DNA of 64,000 bases from Acetilactobacillus jinshanensis (GTDB taxonomy: Bacteria; Bacillota; Bacilli; Lactobacillales; Lactobacillaceae), in the NCBI RefSeq assembly GCF_004359375.1, contig NZ_CP034726.1, forward strand, positions 1,240,001 through 1,304,000, written 5' to 3'. Positions 38,245 to 46,900 of this stretch are shown here, piece after piece. The first letter of the stretch is position 1; each line of letters begins with the position of its first letter. Below the pieces are notes generated by a model, which saw only the letters and a list, made by a program, of their open reading frames with translations, ran no database searches and was not told the DNA's origin. Position numbers and translations under genes: made by a program.

Positions 38245-38342
38245 ATGACTAATATCTACATTTATAAATGTTATCATATAAGAGGACTATTTTAAACGTC
38301 TCAGATTTAATTGACGTTAAATTTAATAAAGAAGGAAAAAAC

Positions 38343-38696
38343 ATGTGGATTACACTTAACTTTTTGTTTTGGCTATTTCTTCTAATTTTTGCTTTGGTCG
38401 GCTTAAATCGACATTCATCCAAGAAATTAGTCAAATGCTTAATTCTTTCCAGAATTTTTTACATCTGCTTAATCATTAGTCAAGTTATGATCACCTTTTA
38501 CTACTTTAAATCTCGACCGGTCGTTGTTAGCATCAGCGGAATTCTTTGCTTGGTAAGTGCTGCCTTGGTTGAAACTGACTTCAGAAAGAAGCAGAGCGGT
38601 AATTTTGGTAAATTCACACTTGACGTTGTCTTCGCGGTTTTACTGATTTACATGATCTTCCAAACTTGGTCGATTTTACCAACTTCGGTTTATTAA
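38343..38696 (+). CDS. YisL family (DUF1516) small membrane protein
   Basis: 117 residues with four membrane helices, starting MWITLNFLFWLFLLIFALVG. AAGGAAAA precedes the ATG at 38343; the longer frame from 38268 is unlikely. Length and pattern match the YisL/DUF1516 family, function unknown. Followed by a terminator, so it is probably a single-gene transcript. Confidence 0.8.
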   Translation: MWITLNFLFWLFLLIFALVGLNRHSSKKLVKCLILSRIFYICLIISQVMITFYYFKSRPVVVSISGILCLVSAALVETDFRKKQSGNFGKFTLDVVFAVLLIYMIFQTWSILPTSVY

Positions 38697-38721
38697 AAAT
38701 GAAGCTTTAATCATAATCATG

Positions 38722-38758
38722 AGCTTCGTTACGTTAATTAATGTGACGAAGCTTTTTA
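38722..38758 (+). terminator. Terminator after the YisL-like gene
   Basis: AGCTTCGTTAC pairs with GTGACGAAGCT around ATTAATT-type loop, followed by a T run. Confidence 0.85.
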
Positions 38759-38778
38759 TTTACAAGCCATGAATATTG

Positions 38779-38784
38779 TATAAT
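38779..38784 (+). promoter_or_regulatory. -10 box of nrdI
   Basis: TATAAT at 38779-38784, preceded by TTG. A start point near 38791 would leave a leader of about 42 nt containing only the AGAAAGGA site before the ACG at 38833, so no upstream ATG would be in the mRNA. Confidence 0.6.
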
Positions 38785-38832
38785 TAAAAGTGTTTCAAGC
38801 GTTTTTACTCGAACTTCAGAAAGGAAATCTCT

Positions 38833-39393
38833 ACGAAGATCCCCGTTTACTACATTTCCATTGAAGGTAACACCAGGCACTTCGTCATGGAAATGGCTAA
38901 ATTATTCAACAATATCCAGCCGCATGAGATTACTGATCAAAGTGATTTGGTCATAATCCCACACAAATATTTTGTGTTCGTGCCGACCTACGTCCGTGGT
39001 GTTCAATTTGATGCTTACCACCGTGTCGATGATTCATCACTTCCTGAGAATATCGAAGAAATGGACACCCTGACGATGAATGACGAATTAGGTTATCATC
39101 ACAATTATAAAAATTGCCTAGGATTAATTGGCTCTGGTAACCGTAATTTTGGAGTCGACTGTTATTGCTGGACGGCTCGCCATTATCATCATAAATATGG
39201 GATCCCGTTGATCGCTGACTATGAAATTCGTGGTAATCTTCAGGAAGAAAACATCATTAATCACCGGATGGTCAAAATCTGGAATCGTAAAACTAATTAT
39301 CACGTTACTTTCCATCCGTATAAAATGATTAATTCTCGATTAGCCGCTTTAGAAAAGAAATACGGTAAAGATCTGCAAGGAAAGGATATCTAA
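38833..39393 (+). CDS. nrdI: NrdI flavodoxin-like protein (class Ib ribonucleotide reductase activator), apparent ACG start
   Basis: NrdI provides the oxidant that builds the Mn(III)2-tyrosyl radical cofactor of NrdF. The conserved N terminus KIPVYYISIEGNTRHFV (FMN loop Gly-Asn-Thr) reads upstream of the first ATG (38887), so that ATG cannot be the true start. The frame has no ATG, GTG or TTG between a stop at 38785-38787 and 38887. An ACG at 38833-38835 lies exactly seven bases after AGAAAGGA (38818-38825). Other family hallmarks: VPTYVRG and YKNCLGLIGSGNRNFG. 186 residues from ACG. No nrdE, nrdF or nrdH is nearby. Confidence 0.85.
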   Translation, partial: TKIPVYYISIEGNTRHFVMEMAKLFNNIQPHEITDQSDLVIIPHKYFVFVPTYVRGVQFDAYHRVDDSSLPENIEEMDTLTMNDELGYHHNYKNCLGLIGSGNRNFGVDCYCWTARHYHHKYGIPLIADYEIRGNLQEENIINHRMVKIWNRKTNYHVTFHPYKMINSRLAALEKKYGKDLQGKDI

Positions 39394-39395
39394 CC

Positions 39396-39776
39396 ATGGA
39401 AGTAGAACCTAGCGTTGTTAAAAATGAATTATTAGACATTAAAAAAACTGCAGAACACGCCAAAGATATTAAGGACGTCGCAACTCGATTAGATGATATC
39501 GGTTCCGATCACATCCCAACGGGACAATATCGTTCTGGCGTTCAAATTAAAACTGATCTCTTAACCCGCGCCAGCAGTTTAATCGATACTGCTAAGCAAG
39601 GTGAACGTGCTGATGAATATATTAAAGAAGCTCGCGAACTTCTAACCGCAGCCTTAAAAGTTAAGGCTGATCAAGTTTATTCCACTAAATTAGTTTACGG
39701 TGACTATCACATGCCAAGCTATTCATTAAAGTCATTAATCACAAGCGTTGATCAGGATCTTAAAAGATTTAATTAA
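39396..39776 (+). CDS. Hypothetical helical protein downstream of nrdI
   Basis: A 126-residue soluble, mostly helical, charged protein with no signal peptide or recognisable motif. It begins two bases after the nrdI stop, so it is co-transcribed, and a terminator follows. I do not recognise it. The operon suggests a link with nucleotide reduction, but nothing in the sequence shows this. Confidence 0.75.
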   Translation: MEVEPSVVKNELLDIKKTAEHAKDIKDVATRLDDIGSDHIPTGQYRSGVQIKTDLLTRASSLIDTAKQGERADEYIKEARELLTAALKVKADQVYSTKLVYGDYHMPSYSLKSLITSVDQDLKRFN

Positions 39777-39800
39777 TCAAAATTAATTTAAATCAACGTA

Positions 39801-39838
39801 AGGCCTAGTTACATAAAGTTATGTAACTAGGCCTTTTT
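39801..39838 (+). terminator. Terminator after the nrdI operon
   Basis: AGGCCTAGTTACAT pairs perfectly with ATGTAACTAGGCCT around a short loop, followed by a T run. Confidence 0.95.
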
Positions 39839-39845
39839 GCGTAAC

Positions 39846-40003
39846 AAAAACATCCCGCCATAATAATATTGGCGGGACGCTTCAAAGGGATGAAAACAAG
39901 TTACATTAATATGGTGCCAATTGGCATCCTCAACTTGTATGTTAAAAAGGAATTGCGGGTCAATAAATTAAATGAATCTATTGGGTAACCATGCCGGCCG
40001 GCA
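39846..40003 (-). ncRNA. Possible small structured RNA with its own terminator
   Basis: This non-coding stretch is rich in inverted repeats: CTGCCGGCCGGCAT (palindrome at 39992-40003), ACAAGTT/AACTTGT (39896-39902 with 39932-39938) enclosing GGTGCC-AATT-GGCATC, and TCCCGCCA/TGGCGGGA (39853-39877). The last is followed on the minus strand by TGTTTTTGTT, an intrinsic terminator. CATCCC (39851) can alternatively pair with GGGATG (39886). No promoter is clear, and a plus-strand RNA is also possible. Confidence 0.45.
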
Positions 40004-40111
40004 GTTATATATTACTAGTTAAACGATTTCATTTTATTAGAAATTAATTTACTCCACATTTATAAACCTTATTAGATTAATGTTCCTTAAAACCAAAATT
40101 AATTTATTTTC

Positions 40112-40153
40112 TTGACAAAAAATGTTGACTATTAATAAAAAAGCTACTACATT
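40112..40153 (+). promoter_or_regulatory. Promoter for the small membrane protein genes
   Basis: TTGACT (40125-40130) and TACATT (40148-40153) are 17 bases apart. An overlapping TTGACA at 40112-40117 is another -35 candidate. Between 40154 and 40247 I see no other element. Confidence 0.5.
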
Positions 40154-40247
40154 TAAAGGTGAAATGAGTTGTGAATATTTGAACAATGTTCTAATTCATT
40201 TTGACGTGTCATTATTGATAATTATAAGTTTGGAAAGGACAATTTTT

Positions 40248-40385
40248 ATGACGTTAAGTATCTTAGCTTCACTTATTATTGCCGTTACATTACCACTTAG
40301 CTATGGATTCGTTAAGGGACTTGGTTCCATTTACTCCATTAAAGCGCTTAAATCCCATAAGATGATCAAAGAATCTGGCCTTTAA
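40248..40385 (+). CDS. Small single-pass membrane protein (45 aa)
   Basis: ATG 40248 lies nine bases after GGAAAGGA. The product begins MTLSILASLIIAVTLPLSYG with one membrane helix (about 3-22) and a basic tail KALKSHKMIKESGL. A longer frame from 40122 lacks a ribosome binding site and starts within the promoter. No known family. Confidence 0.6.
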   Translation: MTLSILASLIIAVTLPLSYGFVKGLGSIYSIKALKSHKMIKESGL

Positions 40386-40481
40386 TTTTATTTCCACTTG
40401 TGAATAAAAGAACATACTTTTGCATGCAATTAATTCTGGTAACTTCCAGCTCTATATTAATGACGAAAGGAAATGAGTGTT

Positions 40482-40643
40482 ATGAATAAAGAACAGCTTC
40501 AGAAATTAGCAATCCAAGCCAACGTTCGCCGGAACGGGATGGACAAAAACGATAACGATGATTATTCAGTTCTCTCCTTCGCTATTTTCATTGTCTTAGT
40601 TAGCCTCTTCGTATCATTCATTTGCCTAATGATTAATCTCTAA
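40482..40643 (+). CDS. Small membrane protein (53 aa)
   Basis: ATG 40482 is preceded by GAAAGGAA, with a second ATG-free spacing of about 12 bases. The product begins MNKEQLQKLAIQANVRRNGM and ends with a hydrophobic helix (about 29-52, SVLSFAIFIVLVSLFVSFIC). Reminiscent of short sortable or stress-type membrane peptides, but no family is recognised. Followed by a terminator. Confidence 0.6.
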   Translation: MNKEQLQKLAIQANVRRNGMDKNDNDDYSVLSFAIFIVLVSLFVSFICLMINL

Positions 40644-40700
40644 ATACATAATTAAAAATATTATTCAATTTCAATTTTCAAAACGATTATCAAGCAAAAT

Positions 40701-40735
40701 AAAGCCACGGCATCATACAAATGTCGTGGCTTTAT
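40701..40735. terminator. Bidirectional terminator
   Basis: AAAGCCACG at 40701 pairs with CGTGGCTTT at 40725-40733, with A/T runs on both sides; convergent between the 53-residue gene and the DMT transporter. Confidence 0.85.
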
Positions 40736-40753
40736 TTTCAGGATTATCGAACA

Positions 40754-41689
40754 TTAATTATTTAGTTTCTCAGCCTTTTTCTCTAGATGGCCATGCGATA
40801 ACTGAAGAATTGCAATGGCCACAATGACCATCCCAGCCCCGATTAATTCAATCGCGTTAACCTGAAGACTAAAGAAAATAATGCTTAAAATAAAAGTAAC
40901 GATCGGTTCAGTAGCGTCCACTAAACTAATAACTTCGGACGAAGCAAACTTAGTGGAATGCAGAACGATAATAAACGGAATTACAGTCCCAATCAAGATC
41001 ATACAGCCAACGCTTAGAATTAAAGCCATATTAATCTTAGGAACGCCAACCCAGACGGGACGATTGATGTTAAACAGTACTCCAGCAATTAAAGCGCCCC
41101 AACCTAGGATTAACATCGGTGGATAATGCCTTTTTACCAATGGTCTTGGTAATACAATGTACAAAGCTTGGGTCAAACCAGAGCCAATCCCCCAGAACAA
41201 CGAAACCATCGGAATTGATAATTCCGAGAAATCACCTTTCGTTAGTGCGAACGTCACACCAACCATGGCAATAATAAAGACCAATAAATCCGTCCATAAC
41301 GGTCGTTTATGCTGAAAGATGATCATCCCAATGACAACAAAAAGCGGTGCTAAATACTGCAGAATTGCTGACATTGCGGAATTACCATTTTGAACACTTA
41401 AATAAAACGTTAATAAATTAGCGCCTAAACCAAAAATGGCGTAAGCAACTAAACTAATCACACCCATAACTGACTTAAAGATATCAAAGATATGTTTACC
41501 ATATATAAAAGCACTAATTACTAATAAAATCAGTCCGGCGAATAACGTTCTTACAGACAAGAACCACGGCGCTGGAATCGCTTCACCCTGCGAAACGAAT
41601 TGAAGAACGGTGGTTGAGATCCCGAACATTGCTGAAGACGCAAAGGCCCACATAATCCCCTTCGTCACCATTGTTTCCTTTGTTTTCAT
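40754..41689 (-). CDS. EamA/DMT family transporter
   Basis: 311 residues with ten membrane helices in two EamA repeats. The ATG at 41689 follows GAAAGGAAAAAGCA; an ATG seven codons upstream is less likely. The family exports amino acids or other metabolites; the substrate cannot be read from the sequence. Confidence 0.88.
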   Translation of the reverse strand: MKTKETMVTKGIMWAFASSAMFGISTTVLQFVSQGEAIPAPWFLSVRTLFAGLILLVISAFIYGKHIFDIFKSVMGVISLVAYAIFGLGANLLTFYLSVQNGNSAMSAILQYLAPLFVVIGMIIFQHKRPLWTDLLVFIIAMVGVTFALTKGDFSELSIPMVSLFWGIGSGLTQALYIVLPRPLVKRHYPPMLILGWGALIAGVLFNINRPVWVGVPKINMALILSVGCMILIGTVIPFIIVLHSTKFASSEVISLVDATEPIVTFILSIIFFSLQVNAIELIGAGMVIVAIAILQLSHGHLEKKAEKLNN

Positions 41690-41857
41690 TGCTTTTTCCT
41701 TTCTACCCATTGTTTGTAACTTGAAAATATTTAATTATCAATTAATAACATTAATCATAATAGTCTCATTGATTAAGGCTTGTACAGAGTCAGTGTTTCA
41801 TTTTAAAGATCCACGCCTTAAGTCGTGATACAATTAGGACCCGAAGAGGTGTAAGCA

Positions 41858-42406
41858 TTGAATAGCGTATCTAGGGAAGTTACAAAATTACTTGAAAACT
41901 ACTGTACAGCTGAAGCTATCCAACGGATTACCGGTGATGGCTTTCTGGTCAACCTCATCAATAATTTTCACGGTAATTTTAATACGTATTTATATCGTCG
42001 GGGCCACGTCCAAATCCTTAGTTATCGAAAAATTACGGAGATTCTAAAGAAACCTCTTAAGAATAATAAATATTTAGATGACCTTTGTGTCTATGACCCC
42101 AGTAGTCATGAATACAGATTTATCCAAGCTAAGGATGCTGGAACCATTCGGATGCTAATCAAAAAATGGTATCAAAACAGTAATGAAATCAATCTTCGGA
42201 TTGAACTTCTTTTTAATTCGAAGATCGGGACTAAATACATTTCAGATCAAACCGGTGTTCCACAGAAATTAATTAGTAAATCTCGACACGGTAAGTTGCC
42301 CATCAATAAAATCGGTGCTGAAAATCGGCTCAAACTTGAGAATTTATATTTGAATTCGCAATTTGCTCAGCACATCCGGAATTTACGAATTAAATTGGCG
42401 GTTTAA
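41858..42406 (+). CDS. Hypothetical protein with possible C-terminal HTH, TTG start
   Basis: 182 residues. A TTG at 41858 lies six bases after GAGGTG, a clear ribosome binding site. The protein is soluble. Residues of about 125-165 (GTKYISDQTGVPQKLISKSR) look like a helix-turn-helix of the XRE or phage-repressor sort. The middle part has no motif I recognise. Followed by a strong terminator, so it is a single-gene transcript. Gene-poor accessory-type surroundings. Confidence 0.7.
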   Translation: MNSVSREVTKLLENYCTAEAIQRITGDGFLVNLINNFHGNFNTYLYRRGHVQILSYRKITEILKKPLKNNKYLDDLCVYDPSSHEYRFIQAKDAGTIRMLIKKWYQNSNEINLRIELLFNSKIGTKYISDQTGVPQKLISKSRHGKLPINKIGAENRLKLENLYLNSQFAQHIRNLRIKLAV

Positions 42407-42424
42407 ACCATTTATAATAAACAG

Positions 42425-42463
42425 AAAAGCAGATTAATTATCAAATAATTAATCTGCTTTTTA
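42425..42463. terminator. Terminator between convergent hypothetical genes
   Basis: AAAAGCAGATTAATTA pairs perfectly with TAATTAATCTGCTTTT, flanked by A and T runs; works both ways. Confidence 0.92.
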
Positions 42464-42487
42464 TTATGGTTCAATTTAAATTCTGAT

Positions 42488-43222
42488 TTAATAGAAGTTA
42501 ACCTTTTCGTTAAAACGAGCCTGGGCTTCTTCTAAACTAATTGACGGCGTATTTAACGTGGAACCGTTTAATTGTAAACGACTGTCAATCATTTCTTTTT
42601 CACGTTCAGAGAACAGGAAGTTTTTATCACTGATGATTTCACGAGCCGTTGCGTACTTAATGATGTAGTGGTTCTTATCCTTCTTGTAGTAAGCATAATA
42701 ACTGACACCATCATCATTATAAAAGTGTTCCGGCTTCTGATGAGTCCACTTCGTATCAACAAAGATCAATAGGTTATCCTTGTTATATGCTTCTTCAGTT
42801 GGGTTGAACTGAGTCTGAATAAACAGATTACTTTCAGCTTCACTCTGGGCATCACTGATCAAGCCGTCCAAGATTTCAAAGACTTCGTTCGGCTTGTATT
42901 GAAGAATGTTGTATTCTAAATTACTGATCCGCTTCCGAATCAAGACATCATCGGTATCACGTTCAGCATCCGCGAAGCCTTTTTCAGTGATGGTCAATTC
43001 TTCATGAGCCTGTTTACGAAGCTGCTTCTTGGCGTGATGACTTAAATTACCGGAATCATCGTTTAATTTACTATAGATTTTAAGAATTTCGTGGATATCA
43101 CTAATTACGGACTTTAGATCTTTAACCACTTGAAGCCGTTTTTCACGGTTCTGCTTAATATTGTATTTTCGTTCTTTATCCTTTTTAGTTAGCTTTTTAG
43201 CAATATCTTTATTCTTATCCAT
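42488..43222 (-). CDS. Hypothetical charged protein
   Basis: 244 residues, no signal peptide or membrane helix. The first 70 residues are Lys-rich and helical (KKLTKKDKERKYNIKQNREK). The second half contains FVDTKWTHQKPEHFYNDDGV and a C-terminal helix. An AGGAAG site precedes the ATG. I do not recognise it. Confidence 0.75.
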   Translation of the reverse strand: MDKNKDIAKKLTKKDKERKYNIKQNREKRLQVVKDLKSVISDIHEILKIYSKLNDDSGNLSHHAKKQLRKQAHEELTITEKGFADAERDTDDVLIRKRISNLEYNILQYKPNEVFEILDGLISDAQSEAESNLFIQTQFNPTEEAYNKDNLLIFVDTKWTHQKPEHFYNDDGVSYYAYYKKDKNHYIIKYATAREIISDKNFLFSEREKEMIDSRLQLNGSTLNTPSISLEEAQARFNEKVNFY

Positions 43223-43281
43223 ACCTATACTTCCTTCTATCCCCTATTTTATGCTTTTAAAGATAGCGTGTCACTTTTCAT

Positions 43282-44451
43282 TTAATCCTTGTGGGTTTTA
43301 ACAAATTTCTGAATTCGACGAACCGCTTCTTTGATGTTATCTGTACTGGCGGCGTAACTAATTCGAATGTGGCCGTCGCCACCAGGTCCAAAAGCATTGC
43401 CTGGAATTGTGCCAACGTGAGCTTCCTTAGCTAACTGGTAAGCAAACTTAAAACTGTCCTGAGTAAACTGACTTGGAATCTTGGCAAAGATATAGAAAGC
43501 ACCGCTTGGTTCAGGACTAGTAAAACCAGCTTTAGATAGACCAGCACGTAAGATGTCACGACGTTTCTTGTAAACTTTACGCATCTTTGGACCGTCATCG
43601 TAACCATTCTTAAAGGCTTCTAATGCAGCGTATTGTGCACAGGTGGTTACGGAGGTAACGTCCAGGACGTGTAAATTATTAACACCGGTGATTACATTCG
43701 TAGGTCCACAAACGAAGCCGACTCGCCAGCCGGTCATCGCAAACGTCTTGGATACTCCGTTCATAACGATAGCTTGATCAGGTAATAAGGTTCCCATTGA
43801 AGTATGCGGTTGATTATAAGTTAATTCACTGTAAATTTCATCACATATACAGAAGATGTGGTGCTTTTTAATAACATTGGCCAATGCCTCAAGCTGTGCC
43901 TTGGTGTAAGTATTACCAACCGGGTTATTAGGGAAGTTCAAGACTAAGGCTTTGGTCTTAGGATGAGCTTTAAGAGTGGCTTCTAATCGTTGCGGTGTTA
44001 ATAAATAGTTATCATTCGATACGTTAACGATTACCGGTTTACCACCATCACAGATAACGTTTGGCGTATAAATCGAAAAGATTGGAGTTGGAATAATGAC
44101 TTCGTCACCAGGATTTAAGATCGCACTGAAGACGGCACGAATTGATTCCGTAACTCCTGATGTAACAACGATCTGACTCTTCGGATTATAATGTAAACCA
44201 TACTTATCCTTTAAGAACTTTGAAATGGCCTGACGTAAAGGTAAAATACCACGCGGATTAGTATAATGGCTTTCGTTATCCTTAATCGCTTTAATACCAG
44301 CCTGCTTAATGTGGTCAGGAGTATTGAAATCAGGTTCACCTAAAGTTAATTTGATTAAATTTGGAATCCCAGAAATTTTCTGATTAAAACTTAAAATCTC
44401 GTTTGGTTTGATATTCTGAACAAACGTACTCATTTGATTTGACATGTCCAT
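43282..44451 (-). CDS. PLP-dependent class I/II aminotransferase (first of a tandem pair)
   Basis: 389 residues from the ATG at 44451, placed nine bases after AAGGAG; a start 12 codons upstream precedes that site. Aspartate-aminotransferase fold type I: PLP-binding NFPNNPVGN, CDEIYSELTY, Schiff-base Lys in GVSKTFAMTGWR and the substrate Arg in GHIRISYA. Close to PatA/aspartate aminotransferases of lactobacilli; substrate not certain. Confidence 0.9.
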   Translation of the reverse strand: MDMSNQMSTFVQNIKPNEILSFNQKISGIPNLIKLTLGEPDFNTPDHIKQAGIKAIKDNESHYTNPRGILPLRQAISKFLKDKYGLHYNPKSQIVVTSGVTESIRAVFSAILNPGDEVIIPTPIFSIYTPNVICDGGKPVIVNVSNDNYLLTPQRLEATLKAHPKTKALVLNFPNNPVGNTYTKAQLEALANVIKKHHIFCICDEIYSELTYNQPHTSMGTLLPDQAIVMNGVSKTFAMTGWRVGFVCGPTNVITGVNNLHVLDVTSVTTCAQYAALEAFKNGYDDGPKMRKVYKKRRDILRAGLSKAGFTSPEPSGAFYIFAKIPSQFTQDSFKFAYQLAKEAHVGTIPGNAFGPGGDGHIRISYAASTDNIKEAVRRIQKFVKTHKD

Positions 44452-44580
44452 ACCAACAATCTCCTTAAGAATTGCATCAATTATCATGGGATAAATTTCA
44501 CAATCGCATGATTATTATAGAACATTATTGATATAGATTAAAAGTATGTTTCTAGTTATCATTATATGAATGGCTATTTA

Positions 44581-45741
44581 TCAGTGGCTTTGAACGTATA
44601 ACTTAATCCGTTTCAGAGCTTCATTAATCTTTTCGAGACTTGCGGCAAACGTAATCCTGACGTGACCTTCTCCATCAGGACCAAAAATGCTACCAGGGAC
44701 AACACCCACACGTGCATTTCTAGCTAGTGACAACGCAAATTTCATGCTGTTGGCTCCGTATTTAGCAGGAATCTTTGGGAACATATAGAAAGCGCCCTGT
44801 GGATTAGCACAATCAAAGCCTAAAGATTCAAGACCGTGTTTTAGAATATCTCGGTGAACCCTATAGGCATCACGAGTCTTAACGTCATCTTTATAACCAT
44901 TTTTAAAGGCTTCACTTGCGGCATATTGAGCAAAGGTGTTTGGTGCGGTTACGGTGATCGAATGCACTTTATTAATTCCATTGATAACTTTAGCGGGACC
45001 GCAAACGATCCCAATCCGCCAACCAGTCATTGCGAAAGCCTTTGATACACCGTTAAAAACGATCGACTGTTCTGGTAATAAATTACCCATTGAATAATGC
45101 GGATGATCATACGTTAATTCACTGTAAATTTCATCACAAAGGCAAAAGACATGATACCGTTGAATAACCTCAGCAAGATCTTCTAATTGCTCTTGATCAT
45201 AAGTAATCCCCGTCGGGTTATCCGGATAGTTTAAAATTAGTGCTTTTACCTTGGGGTGACTTTTTAGAATTTGATTTAACCGATCAGGCTTAATATAAAA
45301 GCCATCTTTAGATGTATCAATGTAAATCGGTTTAGCACCGTGCAATAAAATATTCGGAATGTAAAACGGATAACCAGGTGTAGGAACGATCACTTCGTCT
45401 CCAGGATTCAAAATGGCGGTCAACGTTGAGTTAAGGCCCTCACTAACGCCCGTCGTGACAATCATTTGCGTCTTCGGATCATAATTTAAATGATACTTAC
45501 GCTTAAGATATTGGCTAGCGTTAGTTCTTAAACTTAAAAGGCCTCGAGGGTCCGTGTAATGGCTATGGTTATCCCAAATTGATTTTACGGCCGCTTCTTT
45601 AACGTGCATCGGGGTGTTAAATCCTGGTTCACCCAACATTAAATTAATTAAATCTGGAATTTTAGCAATCTTAAAATTAAAACTGTAAAGGCCAGTCCAA
45701 GGTGCCATTACAATATTATTCATGTCCTTAGATAAATCCAA
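44581..45741 (-). CDS. PLP-dependent class I/II aminotransferase (second of a tandem pair)
   Basis: 386 residues, aligned end to end with the neighbouring aminotransferase, so the two are a tandem duplication that has diverged. All key residues remain: NYPDNPTG, CDEIYSELTY, Lys in GVSKAFAMTGWR and Arg in GHVRITFA. The substrate-side segment differs (TPGYPFYIPN against TPIFSIYTPN), hinting at different substrate ranges. A TATAAT at 45792-45797 on the minus strand lies downstream of the RNA terminator and may be its own promoter. Confidence 0.88.
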   Translation of the reverse strand: MDLSKDMNNIVMAPWTGLYSFNFKIAKIPDLINLMLGEPGFNTPMHVKEAAVKSIWDNHSHYTDPRGLLSLRTNASQYLKRKYHLNYDPKTQMIVTTGVSEGLNSTLTAILNPGDEVIVPTPGYPFYIPNILLHGAKPIYIDTSKDGFYIKPDRLNQILKSHPKVKALILNYPDNPTGITYDQEQLEDLAEVIQRYHVFCLCDEIYSELTYDHPHYSMGNLLPEQSIVFNGVSKAFAMTGWRIGIVCGPAKVINGINKVHSITVTAPNTFAQYAASEAFKNGYKDDVKTRDAYRVHRDILKHGLESLGFDCANPQGAFYMFPKIPAKYGANSMKFALSLARNARVGVVPGSIFGPDGEGHVRITFAASLEKINEALKRIKLYVQSH

Positions 45742-45812
45742 ACTTAATCAAGCTTTCTTAACTTTTGACGTTAACAATACAACTTGATTTTATTATAGCG
45801 CATGATGGTACC

Positions 45813-46098
45813 AAAAAAGTGCTACCCGAGTTCCACTCGAATAACACCTTTTTTTGCGTTGAACACGTATTCTTTATTGTTGCCACGGCTCCTGATACTA
45901 AGAGCCAGCCTGTGGCCATCAGGTTCTAGAGCATTAGTTGTCGGTGGTTTCTATGTCCACTTAGGTTTTTGTCCCAACGCTCTTCTCATGCAAGGTTCAA
46001 GTGCAACGGACAACTGCTACCTTCAGATCCATTTTGTCGGAGACATCCCAAAGAGGCACTATTCGTCTCATCCATCGGAACATGGCTAACCATTGAAT
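45813..46098 (-). ncRNA. Unclassified structured RNA, about 286 nt, upstream of the aminotransferases
   Basis: This gene-free stretch is richer in G and C than the AT-rich spacers beside it. A TATGAT -10 box (46104-46109) precedes it. Its 5' domain is closed by CACTATTC/GAATAGTG (46095-46102 with 46057-46064). Other stems: AGTTGTC/GACAACT, and GCCAC-N5-GGCTC/GAGCC-GTGGC. It ends with a 13-bp hairpin (45819-45847) and six T residues, a strong terminator. No T-box, L-box, SRP, tmRNA, 6S or RNase P signature was recognised. It is either a stand-alone RNA or an attenuator leader. Confidence 0.6.
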
Positions 46099-46141
46099 AG
46101 TGTATCATAAATTGATTTGATTGCTAAAGAAATGTAAACAA

Positions 46142-46173
46142 AAAGTCAAGTAATTTTAAATCACCTGACTTTA
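46142..46173 (-). terminator. Terminator after the Asp racemase gene
   Basis: AAAGTCA-GGTGAT pairs with AT-AC-TGACTTT on the minus strand, followed by TTTTTG. Confidence 0.65.
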
Positions 46174-46186
46174 AACGTTTTATTAA

Positions 46187-46900
46187 TTACTTATTCTTCT
46201 GATCCTTTTCGGCCAATTGAATTGAATGATCAACCAGAACGGCCTGGGCATCAATTACCGGATACCGATGATTGCCAGCTCGTTCCTGAGCTAACGATAA
46301 TTCGGTACAACCCAGAATAATAACGTCACAATGAAATTGGTTAACCATTTCAGCCAAGATATGGTGATACAACTTTGGATCAGCATCGTTATTAGCCTTG
46401 ACATCGTGATAAATCAGATGCATCGTTTCAGCTTCAACGTGTTTATCAGGTAACACCAACTGATAGCCATGATTCTTGATGTCAGCATCATAGATATGAT
46501 CAGCTAACGTTCCTTGAGTGGCAATTAAACCAACTCGTTTGGCGTTCGGATACCGTTTACTAATTTCAGCAACGGCTTCTTTCGGCATATGCAAAACCGG
46601 TGCGTTAGCAGCATCACTGATCTGTTTATAGAAGTAGTGCGCGGTATTACACGGCAATGCATAGAATTCCGGATGCAACAGATTCTGCTGGCGAACGTCA
46701 TCTAACAATGCCGGTAATGGATTTGGTTTACTGTGATCCATGATGTAACTCGTCCGGTCCGGAATCGTGGCGTGGTTAACCAAGATGTAATTTAAATAAT
46801 CTTGATCGGAATGAGCAGGCGTTCTTAAATTTAAGAGATGAATATAACTCTCGGTGGCTTCAGTACCCATTCCACCCAAAATTGTAAAAAATCGCTTCAT
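46187..46900 (-). CDS. racD: Aspartate/glutamate racemase family protein, predicted aspartate racemase
   Basis: Converts L-Asp to D-Asp with two catalytic Cys residues, here in LPCNTAHYF and ILGCTELSL. 237 residues; starts MKRFFTILGGMGTEATESYI, typical for aspartate racemases rather than MurI. Lies seven bases after the ATP-grasp ligase gene; the E. faecium D-Asp ligase (Aslfm) gene has the same type of racemase partner. Confidence 0.88.
   Translation of the reverse strand: MKRFFTILGGMGTEATESYIHLLNLRTPAHSDQDYLNYILVNHATIPDRTSYIMDHSKPNPLPALLDDVRQQNLLHPEFYALPCNTAHYFYKQISDAANAPVLHMPKEAVAEISKRYPNAKRVGLIATQGTLADHIYDADIKNHGYQLVLPDKHVEAETMHLIYHDVKANNDADPKLYHHILAEMVNQFHCDVIILGCTELSLAQERAGNHRYPVIDAQAVLVDHSIQLAEKDQKNK

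Follow-up and report, generated by a model that had tools for sequence, protein, structure and literature searches.

The described kinds of RNA that come closest to the locus discussed here are the leader-peptide transcription attenuators of the trp/phe type, the T-box (RF00230) and the orphan intergenic small RNA genes with an intrinsic terminator, which are a recognised kind. Sensing systems that lie before one and the same gene can be exchanged, and in the Firmicutes this includes leader peptides that replace T-boxes (PMC2965389).

In this work we describe a unit of intergenic DNA that stands before two tandem aminotransferase genes in a 64,000-nt stretch of the Acetilactobacillus jinshanensis genome, which we call the window. 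Our likeliest reading, with a probability of roughly 0.45, is that the unit is a lineage-specific attenuator leader of these genes. The reading rests on where the unit lies, on its strand and terminator, and on how this gene family is habitually regulated. The terminator and where it lies, the absence of a known RNA family and the family's habit of attenuation are all results of computation and are given in turn below.

Leaders of related aminotransferases

We compared 29 loci, one from each genome, that gave the best aminotransferase matches among the 149 other genomes with a match; of all our results, this comparison tells us most. At 16 of them a leader peptide with FWFF, led by a Shine–Dalgarno (SD) sequence, lies 219-515 nt before the matched stretch, e.g. 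MKLNEKTQLNNCRYYFWFFRV, and in every case there is a terminator between the peptide and the aminotransferase gene (L007, L008, L011-L013, L015, L017-L022, L025, L028, L029 and L032). The core is YFWFF in 15 of the 16 and NFWFF in L019. The search expression for leader peptides had matched 19 of the 29 loci; three of these (L005, L027 and L033) show neither an SD nor FWFF and were dropped. L006 shows, by eye, the variant YYFRFF and is outside the count of 16. Matches to the FWFF codon pattern occur in 233 of 397 genomes, a figure that takes in matches within coding sequence and should not be read as the number of leaders.

When 14 of the 16 leaders are aligned, 36 consensus pairs emerge, 15 of which have changes on both sides. 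Thirteen of the leaders were scanned with Rfam at the gathering cut-off, and no match was found in them. The arrangement looks like a ribosome-mediated attenuator, and its codons suggest that it responds to aromatic amino acids. Such an attenuator is possibly new to the literature, and in the portions of the literature on leader-peptide attenuation in lactobacilli that were accessible no description of FWFF leaders was found. By eye, L005 also carries, between terminator and gene, a tandem of two imperfect hairpin elements that resemble each other; these may be mobile or repeated, and L006 has one similar element.

T-boxes take the place before the aminotransferase in two of the 29 loci (G032 and G066). 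They score 100 bits and 89.3 bits, the lower value being below the gathering threshold of 93 but with an E-value of 5.7e-19.

A test of antiterminator energy picks up most of the peptide leaders. Twelve of 14 reach p < 0.05, with the antiterminator 0-43 nt from the terminator, and among relative loci as a whole 13 of 19 do so. The remaining six are L006 (0.645), L010 (0.393), L011 (0.164), L012 (0.068), L014 (0.597) and L021 (0.084); the test does not detect T-boxes, to which L010 and L014 belong, and in L006 and L021 the script probably picked another hairpin.

The own genome of the window holds paralogues of the aminotransferase with leaders too. At two of them (L096 and L098) SD-preceded open reading frames of 32 and 33 codons are followed by terminators, and the antiterminators are better than shuffles (p = 0.002 and 0.010). 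The two peptides have no obvious codon run, and Rfam gave no match at the paralogue loci. A further aminotransferase copy at 874-876 kb of the same genome looks frameshifted near its start, and a hairpin resembling a terminator, together with a short leader, is also present (both by eye).

Layout, terminator and body of the unit

How does the unit compare with these systems? It resembles the YFWFF leaders in preceding an aminotransferase of the same family on the same strand, in having a terminator shortly before the gene and in a possible three-segment alternative pairing. Unlike them, it contains no leader-like open reading frame with a codon run, as judged by eye from its translation, and the codon pattern TAYTTYTGGTTYTTY has 0 matches in the own genome. 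With the T-box it shares a comparable length, position and terminator, but it lacks a match to the T-box model at E up to 10 and has no T-box sequence before the terminator. It is like the orphan small RNA genes in being bounded by terminators and belonging to no known family, whereas no sign of a separate transcript or of trans action was found for it.

Table 1. Features of the locus, in window coordinates
Feature	Position	Strand	Description
Candidate leader RNA unit	45813..46106	-	About 290 bases; 5' end approximate
Intrinsic terminator of the unit	45813..45853	-	19 uninterrupted pairs, 4 of them G-U
Intrinsic terminator of the upstream racemase gene	46142..46172	-	14 pairs, T tail (consensus terminator scan)
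First aminotransferase	44581..45741	-	PF00155; best NCBIfam match PRK07309, below its cut-off
Second aminotransferase of the tandem	43282..44487	-	55% identical to the first
TATGAT, possible -10 box	46104..46109	-	By eye; no good -35 at 16-18 nt
Segment 1, CACTATTC	46095..46102	-	Perfect 8-nt complement of 46064-46057
Segment 2, possible antiterminator	46048..46066	-	Pairs with the 5' arm of the terminator, -13.5 kcal/mol
10-bp helix 45983-45974 / 45937-45928	45928..45983	-	Strongest single stem of the body (helix search)
Hairpin 45916-45912/45886-45882 with 45906-45902/45891-45887	45882..45923	-	Single-sequence prediction

The upstream gene encodes an amino-acid racemase (TIGR00035 match), and its terminator separates the unit from upstream transcription. 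On the other side, 71 nt lie between the end of the unit's own terminator (45813) and the first aminotransferase, which begins with a TTG at 45741 behind a weak Shine–Dalgarno sequence (by eye). The unit is single-copy in its genome. Viewed as an attenuator, it shows a clear terminator on the strand of the gene and a weak promoter upstream.

The strong terminator claimed in a first-pass annotation of this DNA was borne out; the uninterrupted hairpin alone has z = -7.0 against shuffles. Its T run consists of six T at 45818-45813, and pairing between these and the A run of the opposite arm is possible as well. The consensus terminator scan reported the racemase hairpin alone and not that at 45853-45813, presumably because the T run sits within the stem; a second scan, made for this analysis, detected it. 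The same annotation was right about the raised G+C content, which is 46.6% in the body (45856-46106) against 39.4% in the window. Only 5.5% of 250-nt windows reach this value, and the flanks are very A+T-rich, with G+C of 31% and 22%.

Its further claim of long-range stems was not borne out beyond chance. Taken as a whole, the unit is more stable than its shuffles (z = -2.75), which is due to the terminator; the body on its own has z = -1.0, and 47 of 300 shuffles fold at least as well. Possible helices in the body are near chance at three of four cut-offs, and at the strictest there are 19 against a shuffle mean of 12.6, a number reached by 0.045 of 200 shuffles. A possible pseudoknot (45923-45917/45897-45891) partly overlaps the hairpin in Table 1 and is likewise a single-sequence prediction.

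The promoter-like box noticed at first pass is present, but it is weak. TATGAT is the sole promoter-like feature noticed there, the consensus promoter scan reported no promoter at 46109-46104, and a proper -35 is lacking. A promoter scan found 1 site against a shuffle mean of 2.2. If the box were used, it would imply an RNA start at 46098 and a unit of 286 nt.

Known families, homologues and surroundings

The earlier view that the unit belongs to no known RNA family stands as far as our tests go. The Rfam search proposed with it gave no match at the gathering cut-off, and relaxing the limit to E up to 10 over 551 nt (45700-46250) brought up nothing credible. Elsewhere in the window the same run does pick out known RNAs (tRNAs, an L20 leader, a SAM-III riboswitch and a T-box), the genuine T-box (57611-57404) with 124.2 bits. 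6S RNA (RF00013) was considered, since the own genome is without a 6S match, and was rejected by model and length. We note that 14 of 40 other genomes likewise have no match to RF00013 at E up to 1, as is the case for the own whole genome. A decayed gene was also considered and rejected, a six-frame Pfam search of the unit giving three matches far below cut-off (E 0.034-0.088).

A collection of homologues for covariation had been proposed as well, and none that is credible was found among the genomes sampled. There is therefore no covariation. With blastn we searched a family sample of 300 other genomes and an order sample of 394 other genomes, at most two candidates being scored per genome. 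The family sample gave matches in 2 of 301 genomes including the own, the other being 31 nt within an MntH-like coding sequence; the order sample gave matches in 4 of 395 including the own, the other three falling in three unrelated long open frames. With this spread over unrelated frames, an mntH pseudogene was dropped as a reading.

For the 134-nt domain on the 3' side (45882-46015) we built a covariance model from one sequence entered twice; among 396 other genomes of the family it revealed no credible homologue. It matched 18 of 397 genomes including the own, and the best foreign E-value, 0.0022 per genome, is the chance expectation over so many genomes. The genomic context was viewed for 11 of 18 foreign matches, none of which was extended by blastn past 55 nt. 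Under laxer filters 3 of 26 near genomes matched including the own, with no credible homologue in the 25 others. The family and order samples used with blastn and the covariance model overlap, and the genus is represented by one genome in the collection searched.

Comparison of the unit with plasmids (blastn, E limit 1e-5) and with phages (E limit 1) returned no match. An exact 21-mer of the unit has 0 matches in genome contigs; in viral contigs a 17-mer has one match and a 20-mer 0, and the contig with the 17-mer (L095) shows no similarity to the unit by blastn at E up to 1. Nine leaders of paralogues and relatives have no similarity to the unit beyond shuffles, and the same is true of local similarity to two T-box leaders (33/200 and 177/200 shuffles as good). 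No mention of the unit was found in the literature on small RNAs in lactobacilli, as far as its accessible portions go.

In 17 of the 29 relatives' loci the racemase gene is adjoined by a convergent small gene, homologous to that at 38268-38696 of the window. In the window these two convergent genes are parted by 7.5 kb (38697-46186) that include the aminotransferases and the unit. As the two are adjacent in so many relatives, the 7.5-kb stretch looks like a lineage-specific insertion, judging from gene order. It also encodes an NrdI-like protein (below the family cut-off), what we take to be an EamA-like membrane protein, and proteins without family.

A possible switch and the competing readings

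We infer a promoter, a switch and an amino-acid-related signal for the unit in the following way. RNA polymerase would start near 46100 and by default stop at the 19-pair terminator at 45813. In response to an amino-acid-related signal the terminator arm would be engaged in a different pairing, possibly to 46066-46048, a segment that 46102-46095 could otherwise occupy. Sequestration of the arm would then permit read-through into the aminotransferases. The unit would have taken over, in this lineage alone, the role that a T-box or leader peptide plays in the relatives.

There is a hint of such a three-segment switch (46102-46095, 46066-46048 and the terminator arm). The energy of the antiterminator pairing is matched by 7% of shuffles and by 3.5-7.6% of window pieces. 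Taken alone, it is equalled by 0.06-0.13 of shuffles with a longer terminator arm and by 0.25-0.31 with shorter arms, and an automatically cut arm gives p = 0.209. In the antiterminator test applied in common to all loci the unit has p = 0.094; of 68 sites in the window that resemble terminators, 8 reach p <= 0.1. The candidate antiterminator of the unit lies 192 nt from the terminator, unlike the 0-43 nt of the peptide leaders.

A joint statistic for all three segments, devised after the repeats had been seen and unable to detect the two T-boxes, is matched by 0 of 2000 and 1 of 2000 shuffles in two runs. For RNA starts at 46106-46120 it is 0-0.011 across arm choices; a start at 46101 gives 1.4-2.7% and one at 46098 gives 0.10-0.25. 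With one more nucleotide in the terminator arm it rises from 0.0005 to 0.006. Values of 0.007 or less are found for 12 of the 14 peptide leaders covered, a set that omits L021 and L029, for 0 of 2 T-boxes, for both own paralogues and for 2 of the 68 window sites. These 68 are not clean negatives, as they include the unit's terminator (with a shorter arm and an upstream cut, and outside the 14 best) as well as sites at the T-box of the window.

The first-pass annotation had proposed a ligand- or tRNA-sensing leader. The leader part of this is supported by context, namely the attenuators of relatives and paralogues. The sensing part fares less well, given the want of homologues, a body that folds at the level of chance and an antiterminator signal that depends on the start chosen. 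It is improbable, in our estimation, that the unit founds a new leader class, specific to the lineage and responsive to a metabolite or tRNA, in which a domain of about 200 nt, possibly pseudoknotted, lies between the 5' antiterminator and the terminator arm and has replaced the T-box or leader peptide of relatives. Still less probable is a T-box that has diverged beyond the reach of its model. The T-boxes of G032 and G066 are at the corresponding place, in the genus that has the nearest relative of the window's ATP-grasp neighbour protein; the length is comparable, and UGGUACC occurs at 45813-45807. This motif, however, is at the end of the terminator and not before it, no T-box match appears at E up to 10 in a run where the genuine T-box of the window scores so highly, and the similarity to the two T-box leaders does not exceed that of shuffles.

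Rather more weight, although still on the doubtful side, goes to an inert, lineage-specific spacer of foreign or decayed DNA, whose strong terminator merely insulates the aminotransferases. The chance-level body fold, the weak promoter, the lack of homologues and the apparent insertion of the 7.5 kb all fit a spacer. Against it, the six frames hold no protein domain above cut-off, and the terminator is intact and strong within G+C-rich DNA that has no other explanation. A trans-acting RNA, also raised at first pass, found no specific support in any of our results. In this reading the unit would be a separate small RNA gene, having a promoter and a terminator of its own, and the aminotransferase would have its promoter in the 71-nt gap. 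Terminators do flank the unit on both sides, and between RNA and gene are a TATAAT (45797-45792) and a promoter-like pair (45814-45787) that agrees with the consensus at 9 of 12 positions. The TATAAT could give the aminotransferase a promoter of its own, which also counts against an attenuator. That said, the promoter scan found fewer sites than the shuffle mean, there is no conservation among the relatives searched and no target evidence, and the location before an often-attenuated gene family favours a leader. We regard a small RNA gene as unlikely, slightly more so than a spacer.

If the unit were a mere spacer with a terminator, it would be ordinary. If it is an attenuator, as we tentatively prefer, then a single bacterial family would control one aminotransferase family through no fewer than three unrelated types of leader, i.e. 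an aromatic leader peptide, a T-box and the RNA of the window. This would make it a clear case of the turnover of regulatory RNAs and would offer a candidate for an undescribed sensor.
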